Source: Cucumis sativus (lineage: Eukaryota > Streptophyta > Magnoliopsida > Cucurbitales > Cucurbitaceae). From it: a stretch of 64,000 nucleotides of DNA. Below, in pieces: positions 60,446-64,000 of the stretch; position 1 is the first letter of the stretch, and the number at the start of each line of letters is the position of its first letter. The DNA is taken from assembly GCF_000004075.3 (NCBI RefSeq), contig NC_026657.2, positions 34,024,732-34,088,731 of the forward strand, read 5' to 3'. The position numbers and the translations under genes were made by a program. The notes under the pieces were generated by a model. The model saw only the letters and a list, made by a program, of their open reading frames with translations, was not told where the DNA came from and made no database searches.

Positions 60446-60511
60446 ACCCCCTTTTCCTTCTCAAATTCTCCACCAATAAACCTTCAAATTCCACAATTTC
60501 CTCAAACAAAC

Positions 60512-62128
60512 ATGACCCATCCCATGGGACAGCTCTGGAACAATGTCGGCTCTTTAATGGCCACCGCCATGTTCGTTTGGGCAATCATCCAACAATACTT
60601 CCCTTACCATCTTCGTGCCCACATCGAACGATACGCTCACAAATTTATTGGGTTTCTTTATCCTTACATCACAATCACTTTCCCTGAATACACCGGCGAG
60701 CGTCTCCGGAAGAGTGAGGCCTTTACCGCTATTCACAATTACCTCAGTTCACGAAGCTCAATTCGAGCTAAGCGTCTGAAAGCAGAGGCGGTCAAAGATA
60801 GTAAATCTTTGGTTCTTAGTATGGATGATAATGAAGAAGTTATCGATGAATTTCAAGGCGTTAAGATTTGGTGGACTTCCAGTAAAACCGTACCCAAAAC
60901 TCAGAGTATATCTTACTACCCTACTTCCGAGGAGAGACGATTTTACAAACTGACGTTTCACCGGCGACACAGAGAAACCATTCTTGACTCATTTATTAAT
61001 CATATTATGGAAGAGGGAAAGGCCGTCGAGCTGAAAAACCGGCAACGGAAGCTTTATATGAACCATTCCGGTGAGAGTTGGCGGCATAAAAGTAGTTGGA
61101 GACATGTACCTTTTGAGCATCCAGCCAATTTCCGTACTCTGGCTATGGATCCAAAGAAGAAACAAGAGATTGTGAATGATTTAGTGAAGTTTAAGAAAGG
61201 GAAAGAGTACTATGAGAAAGTGGGGAAGGCTTGGAAACGTGGGTATCTTCTGTACGGTCCACCAGGAACAGGGAAATCCACCATGATCGCTGCCATGGCA
61301 AATTTCATGGAGTATGATGTTTATGATCTTGAGCTGACGTCTGTTAAGGATAATACAGAGTTGAAGAAGTTGTTGATCGAGATTTCCAATAAATCCATTA
61401 TTGTGATTGAGGATATTGATTGTTCACTTGATCTTACGGGGCAACGGAAGAAGAAGAAGAAAACAGAGGAGGAGGGAGATGAAGCGAAGGAGATTGAGAA
61501 GAAGGCTAAAGAGGAAGAGAAGAAAGAGAGCAAAGTGACGCTTTCTGGGCTGTTGAATTTCATAGACGGAATTTGGTCAGCGTGTGGTGGAGAGAGGTTG
61601 ATTATTTTCACGACGAATCACAAGGAAAAGCTTGACGAAGCTTTGATAAGAAGAGGAAGAATGGACAAACATATAGAAATGTCTTATTGTGGTTTCGAAG
61701 CATTCAAAATTCTTGCAATGAATTACTTGGATGTTGAATGGGATGATTCATACGATAAAATTAAGGAGATGCTAGAAGAGATAGAAATGGCACCGGCAGA
61801 CGTGGCAGAGAATTTGATGCCAAAATACGAAGGGGAAGAAACAGGCGAGTGTTTCAAGAGATTGATCAAGGGACTTGAGGATGCAAAAGTGGCAGCTGAG
61901 AAGAAGAAAGCAGAGGAAGAAGCTGAAGCTACAAAAATGGCAGAGAAAGAGAAGGAGAAGAAGGAAAAAGAGGAGAAGAAAAAAGCTGAGGATGAAGCAG
62001 AAGCTGCTAAAAAGGAAGAGAAGAAGGAAGAAGAAGAATCGGGTGAGAAGGAATGTAGTAAATGCAATGGGGTAACAACAAGAGAGGTGAAGGAGAATGG
62101 TCATGTGGAGAAGAAACAGAACAATTGA
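60512..62128 (+). CDS. AAA-ATPase, AATP1/BCS1-like, copy 3 (mosaic)
   Basis: Intronless, 538 residues. Anchor at about 13-29, Walker A GPPGTGKST at 249-257, Walker B IIVIEDIDC at 296-304, sensor 1 TTNH and RRGRMD are all present. N-terminal residues to about 110 resemble copy 2 (RYAHKFIGFLYPYITITFPE, KAEAVKDSKS), residues about 120-195 resemble copy 1 (SSKTVPKTQSISYYPTS, NHSGESWRHK), and the rest is nearly identical to copy 2. The tail is a few residues shorter (KKEEKKEEEESGEKEC). It starts MTHPMGQLW, one residue shorter than its sisters. The pattern suggests gene conversion inside the array. Expected to be functional. Confidence 0.95.
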   Translation: MTHPMGQLWNNVGSLMATAMFVWAIIQQYFPYHLRAHIERYAHKFIGFLYPYITITFPEYTGERLRKSEAFTAIHNYLSSRSSIRAKRLKAEAVKDSKSLVLSMDDNEEVIDEFQGVKIWWTSSKTVPKTQSISYYPTSEERRFYKLTFHRRHRETILDSFINHIMEEGKAVELKNRQRKLYMNHSGESWRHKSSWRHVPFEHPANFRTLAMDPKKKQEIVNDLVKFKKGKEYYEKVGKAWKRGYLLYGPPGTGKSTMIAAMANFMEYDVYDLELTSVKDNTELKKLLIEISNKSIIVIEDIDCSLDLTGQRKKKKKTEEEGDEAKEIEKKAKEEEKKESKVTLSGLLNFIDGIWSACGGERLIIFTTNHKEKLDEALIRRGRMDKHIEMSYCGFEAFKILAMNYLDVEWDDSYDKIKEMLEEIEMAPADVAENLMPKYEGEETGECFKRLIKGLEDAKVAAEKKKAEEEAEATKMAEKEKEKKEKEEKKKAEDEAEAAKKEEKKEEEESGEKECSKCNGVTTREVKENGHVEKKQNN

Positions 62129-62890
62129 ATAAGAATAGCTATGTACGAGAATTGTACATTAGATTTAATGTGTGTAAAACGAAGGGCAATAAAAGAGGAT
62201 TTGTAAATTGTAAACCATTTTAATGCATAATTTGTAGACTCGAATACTGTGTTAGTAAAAAAAATGGTTTGTACTGTAGAAGCTAATGCTCATGGATTGA
62301 TTGTGTATGTTACGAATTCTACAATCATTGATTCTCGGCTTGACATATTCTATGATCCAGGAGGAGGTGAAGTACTTAATTAATATGTTGCTTTGATTTT
62401 GGTCGACATAATCTAATTTTATATACGATTTTTTGTTTTGAAAAGGCTCGATAAAAATCTTAGTTGCTCCGGTTTCATAGTATAAATCTATCCTATGATA
62501 GTTCCATAAGCAGCAAGGGGAAAAATCCCAACAATTGCACGATTCTGTCTCAAGTCTTCATATAATCTCCCATCCTCTCAAATACAGTGCTCTTTAAGCA
62601 ATTTGATAATTCTAAAACCACATCTGGAAGAAGTCCTACCTCCGATCCTCTCAATCCCAAACACACTCTTATTCCATTCCTTGAAAGAAAAAAGTTTGGC
62701 ACGAACAGACGAAGAACGTAGTGGAACATACAAGTTCTGAGACAATATAAATCTTCAAAATTCCTTAGTCATTCCATTAAATAAAAATTGGTGCACGGAC
62801 TTAGTTTAATACAAAGGCTATGATAGCAAGTGAACAGAAAACCTCATGAAATTTCAAGAATCGAAGAACATACAAGATGCCAAAACCGAA
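62129..62890. other. intergenic: AATP copy 3 3' flank and end of the snoRNA transcription unit
   Basis: The copy-3 3' UTR lies at the left (an ATTGATTGTGTATG segment matches the copy-2 flank near 52285). From 62400 to 62890 no gene or clear RNA was found; it may hold the 3' end of the minus-strand unit. Confidence 0.5.
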
Positions 62891-62893
62891 AAT

Positions 62894-62996
62894 TAAGCTC
62901 AGAATATGAATATTCATTCTCATCGACTTATCTTTCCGAGAAAAGAAAAATCTCCGAAGTCTGACATGTGAATTTAATTCATAATTCATCATCGCA
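62894..62996 (-). ncRNA. candidate C/D-box snoRNA (third in cluster)
   Basis: Minus strand: C box ATGATGA at 62992-62986, C'-like GATGAG near 62922, D box CTGA at 62902-62899. The terminal stem is weak (two pairs), so this is the least certain of the set. Confidence 0.3.
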
Positions 62997-63046
62997 AAAA
63001 AAATTTCAAAAATCTCAAAACAACAAAACAAAACACGTAATACACA

Positions 63047-63160
63047 AACTGTAGCAGAAGCTCTCATATAGCTTCCATAGATATCTACACAAACTTTCAT
63101 CTTCAGAATAGCGTATATTGCCCTATTAAGGCATGTAATCACAGAGCAACCGCTACAGAA
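63047..63160 (-). ncRNA. candidate H/ACA-box snoRNA
   Basis: Minus strand: a 5' hairpin from TAGCG (63155-63151) to CGCTA (63113-63109), with an inner GTTGC/GCAAT helix and a GCC/GGC cap around an internal loop that could serve as a guide pocket. A hinge with AGATGA (63102-63097) fits the H box ANANNA. A 3' hairpin runs from TGTAG (63089-63085) to CTACA (63054-63050), with an inner GAAGCT/AGCTTC stem. ACA at 63052-63050 is followed by three bases. The layout is hairpin-hinge-hairpin-tail, as in H/ACA RNAs that guide pseudouridylation. Targets were not worked out. Confidence 0.5.
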
Positions 63161-63217
63161 AAAGACATTTCCAGTACAAAATAAGTAGAGAAAAAAAAAA
63201 AACAAGTAGAAGAAAAG

Positions 63218-63299
63218 GAGATCAGAGGCATATTAGGAGTTGAAAACAGTCATGGTTTAATCAGAAACACGGACCAATATAAAAACCTCATCAAATCTC
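63218..63299 (-). ncRNA. candidate C/D-box snoRNA (second in cluster)
   Basis: Minus strand, 82 nt: terminal stem GAGA (63299-63296) with TCTC (63221-63218), C box TGATGA (63293-63288), D' CTGA (63264-63261), C'-like ATGACT next to it, D box CTGA (63225-63222). Box order, spacing and length fit a 2'-O-methylation guide. The base before the C box is T and not the usual purine. Confidence 0.5.
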
Positions 63300-63355
63300 A
63301 ATGTCAAATAATCAAACAAATGAACATGTAAAGAATAAGAAGAAGAAAAAAAAGC

Positions 63356-63449
63356 TAAATCATCAGAGACTTAAATACCAAGAATCATGGAAATGGAATA
63401 GATTTTCCATTCATATTGTTGCAGTTTTTTTCTCTCATCACTTGATTCA
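63356..63449 (-). ncRNA. candidate C/D-box snoRNA (first in cluster)
   Basis: Minus strand, 94 nt: terminal stem TGAATCA (63449-63443) with TGATTTA (63362-63356), seven pairs including a G-U; C box GTGATGA (63441-63435); D box CTGA (63366-63363). An internal AATGGAA/TTCCATT hairpin lies in the middle. The stretch before the D box, TTGGTATTTAAGTCT, would be the guide. It lies about 100 nt after the predicted transcription start. Confidence 0.5.
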
Positions 63450-63574
63450 ACTAAGAAAGAAATACGAATTGCAAATTACAAATGCAATAGAACAGACAAA
63501 ATCAAATAGAGCTTCTGAAGAATGGAGTGGTAAAATGAAAAAGAAAGATTGTGAAACCTGAAGATGGAGGCGCA

Positions 63575-63716
63575 TATTTATAGGTCCAATTTCGCCGCAG
63601 CGTAAGAAACCCTAACCGGAGAAGGAACGAAGAGTTCTGCCCTTTTCGGGAAATTTTGAGCAATTGAAACTGGGCTGACGGCCCAGTCAAACGTTGGGTT
63701 CATTCCATTGGCCCAA
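63575..63716 (-). promoter_or_regulatory. TATA + telo-box + site II promoter driving the minus strand
   Basis: On the minus strand, in order toward the gene: site II-type TGGGCC/GGCCCA motifs at 63709-63714 and 63671-63685, a telo-box (AAACCCTAA on plus, 63607-63615) and a TATA box TATAAATA at 63582-63575. This combination is typical of plant snoRNA and ribosomal-protein genes. The predicted start is near 63550. Confidence 0.75.
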
Positions 63717-64000
63717 TAGTTCATTTCAAACTTTATCACACATGTCCTACTCTTTTTTTCACTTTTAGACTAATAATGTATTAGCTTTTATTTGGCAACA
63801 TGTTTCTAAAGAACTTCTAATATATTCATAAACTTTTTTAAAATTTGAGTTATATCTAGAAATTAATTTTTGTATTGTATTATATTTGCAAAAGTTAAAG
63901 TTTCAATTTGTTATATAAAAATATAATTTAAAAATATGAAGAAAAAATGTTAAGAATCTATAAATGTACATAACAATAGTACTAAATATGTTGAAAAGAT
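63717..64000. other. AT-rich upstream flank, nothing seen
   Basis: Upstream of the site II motifs the DNA is AT-rich with no gene or repeat recognised up to the window edge. Confidence 0.5.

Follow-up and report, generated by a model that had tools for sequence, protein, structure and literature searches.

Polycistronic clusters of small nucleolar RNAs (snoRNAs) are described from plants (PMC3022908 and PMC8053127). The independent clusters of Arabidopsis and rice hold close, same-strand snoRNAs outside protein genes, with a telo box and site II motifs upstream (PMC3022908), and in rice telo boxes accompany site II at 21 of 41 such clusters (PMC3022908). We analysed a 64,000-nucleotide (nt) stretch of the Cucumis sativus genome (the window; contig NC_026657.2), on whose minus strand a sequence-only reading had placed a polycistronic snoRNA gene at 62890-63716. 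Likewise, several same-strand snoRNAs lie here behind a single telo-box/site II promoter and outside protein genes, as in an independent polycistronic plant snoRNA gene. The locus is very probably an ordinary, well-supported gene of this kind with four box C/D snoRNAs, whose co-transcription we infer. The promoter motifs and three C/D candidates of the earlier proposal stand, but the H/ACA class it gave to the fourth RNA does not.

Four box C/D snoRNAs and their guides

Rfam models, the check that had been suggested for this region, returned three gathering-level matches in the whole window (snoZ199, snoR64 and U54), all inside the claimed region, together with SNORD18 just below its cut-off; all four are C/D families on the minus strand. 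snoZ199 (63358-63448; RF00200) scored 75.8 bits, SNORD18/U18 (63218-63299; RF00093) 39.3 bits, under the gathering score of 41 (E 1.9e-5), U54 (63059-63148; RF00206) 46.4 bits against a cut-off of 40, and snoR64 (62892-63000; RF00267) 73.9 bits. The models are matched from end to end, including the D' guide region, and C/D families agree almost to the base with the three candidates originally read from the letters (63449-63356, 63299-63218 and 62996-62894). A permissive scan of 62400-64000, which supplied the SNORD18 match, gave 11 matches, 10 to C/D families and one, at 17.9 bits against 54, to a microRNA family. The match of snoMe18S-Gm1358 (62813-62749), which would be a fifth snoRNA further downstream, reached 18.0 bits against 50 and was taken as chance. 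The window contains no tRNA genes.

A C box (RUGAUGA) stands close to the 5' end of the RNAs and a D box (CUGA) close to the 3' end, both imperfect in U54; a guide beside D or D' pairs with ribosomal RNA (rRNA), its fifth base giving the target. Judged by these pairings, each of the four looks fitted to guide a chemical mark on rRNA. The D' guide of snoZ199 pairs with 18S at the equivalent of U615, the SnoR13 site in Arabidopsis. That of SNORD18/U18 forms a 14-base-pair (bp) pairing with the equivalent of 25S A661 as target, and that of U54 a 13-bp pairing to 18S with the equivalent of G599 as target and CTGA directly after the guide. snoR64 pairs with rRNA over 15 bp, and its D' guide would pick the same 25S nucleotide as Arabidopsis SnoR58Y (C675/U676), to which it is likened by target site only; plant snoRNA names are partly contradictory (PMC5122169). 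Together the four D' guides would target two pairs of neighbouring rRNA sites, a post hoc observation that hinges on the R64 assignment. Two such pairs (16 nt apart or less) arose in about 0.04% of random draws of four from 111 Arabidopsis sites, and at least one neighbouring pair in about 7%.

One point weighs against the gene as read here and lowers our confidence very slightly: the rRNA pieces used for guide pairing are partial and were located by target words. These pieces were additionally tested with Rfam. Ribosomal DNA pieces, partial or low-scoring, are scattered in the assembly (L010, L011, L012, L016, L019 and L020); they include a 137-base 25S fragment that recurs without a change at a second locus on another contig.

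Promoter and genomic setting

Upstream of the snoRNAs, a motif scan located all the promoter elements that the sequence-only reading had listed: a TATA box (TATAAA; 63577-63582, minus strand) 134 nt before snoZ199, the first snoRNA, a telo box (63607-63614; minus-strand reading TAGGGTTT) and three minus-strand site II motifs (TGGGCY or complement; 63671-63676, 63680-63685 and 63710-63715). Transcription would start about 30 nt downstream of the TATA box. TATAAA is common, with 97 occurrences in the window, which also holds 9 telo box and 24 site II matches (25 with overlapping ones). No other position in the window's motif list combines one telo box with three site II motifs inside about 110 bp.

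Downstream of the unit and convergent with it lies an AAA-ATPase open frame (60446-62128, plus strand; Pfam AAA_assoc, AAA and At3g28540-like lid). On the upstream side, past the window end, a thaumatin-family frame (L013 4097-4900, minus strand) runs on the same strand as the snoRNAs and stops about 0.9 kb short of snoZ199, the first of them. The snoRNA unit therefore appears intergenic. The earlier remark that the region has no credible protein frame is consistent with the three minus-strand frames scanned between 62252 and 63232 (143, 101 and 72 amino acids), none of which matches Pfam, shorter frames being outside the scan; a protein-coding reading was rejected on the same evidence.

The snoRNAs could alternatively be borne in the introns of a host gene, a location known for some plant clusters (PMC3022908) and one for which the upstream, same-strand thaumatin-like frame would offer a candidate. 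Against this, the TATA box, telo box and site II motifs occupy the interval between 134 and 267 nt upstream of snoZ199, and the thaumatin frame stops about 0.9 kb upstream of it; the next recognised downstream frame is convergent, and the scanned minus-strand frames lack Pfam matches, frames further downstream on that strand lying outside the scan. We consider an intronic origin very unlikely and favour the independent polycistronic gene.

The H/ACA candidate and the stem around U54

The fourth RNA had been read as an H/ACA candidate at 63160-63047, which would make the unit a mixed C/D and H/ACA polycistron. Indeed, the segment folds with unusual stability (-37.2 kcal/mol, z -3.56; none of 200 shuffles reached that stability), and an ACA triplet is present close to its 3' end. 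It nevertheless matches the C/D family U54 above cut-off, and its guide and D' box fit 18S at the Arabidopsis U54 site. The predicted fold is a single long stem enclosing the C/D RNA, not two successive hairpins joined by an H box hinge, and no H/ACA family is among the 11 permissive Rfam matches, no dedicated H/ACA predictor having been run. A mixed polycistron is thus hardly credible here. Such mixed clusters are already on record from plants (PMC7464842), so even a unit of that kind would have been no novelty.

The segment owes its stability to a stem around U54, predicted to have nine pairs (63049-63158, minus strand; core 63158-63152 with 63055-63049). This outer stem, which lies beyond the U54 Rfam match, also accounts for the H/ACA-like look, and may aid processing. 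The other three snoRNAs fold little better than shuffles (z -0.28, -1.32 and -0.10); an absence of notable excess stability may be expected of C/D RNAs.

A second locus and the tomato cluster

A second U18 copy in the genome scores 44.6 bits. For conservation, the Rfam matches and this second locus served as stand-ins for a comparison with other cucurbits. The lower score of U18 here (39.3) would suit a decayed, unexpressed copy of the cluster whose function is carried by the second locus, a reading that we hold to be extremely improbable beside that of an ordinary four-snoRNA gene. At the second locus, no U54 or R64 remnant beat the best of 20 shuffled copies. A snoZ266-like match near it (22.7 bits against 43) was taken as chance.

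The tomato cluster snoR12-U24-z44-z132 differs from the one described here in its snoRNA families, the promoters not being compared (PMC7762058). Like the cucumber cluster, it consists of C/D snoRNAs only and is repeated in part at a second place in the genome, in tomato on another chromosome (PMC7762058).
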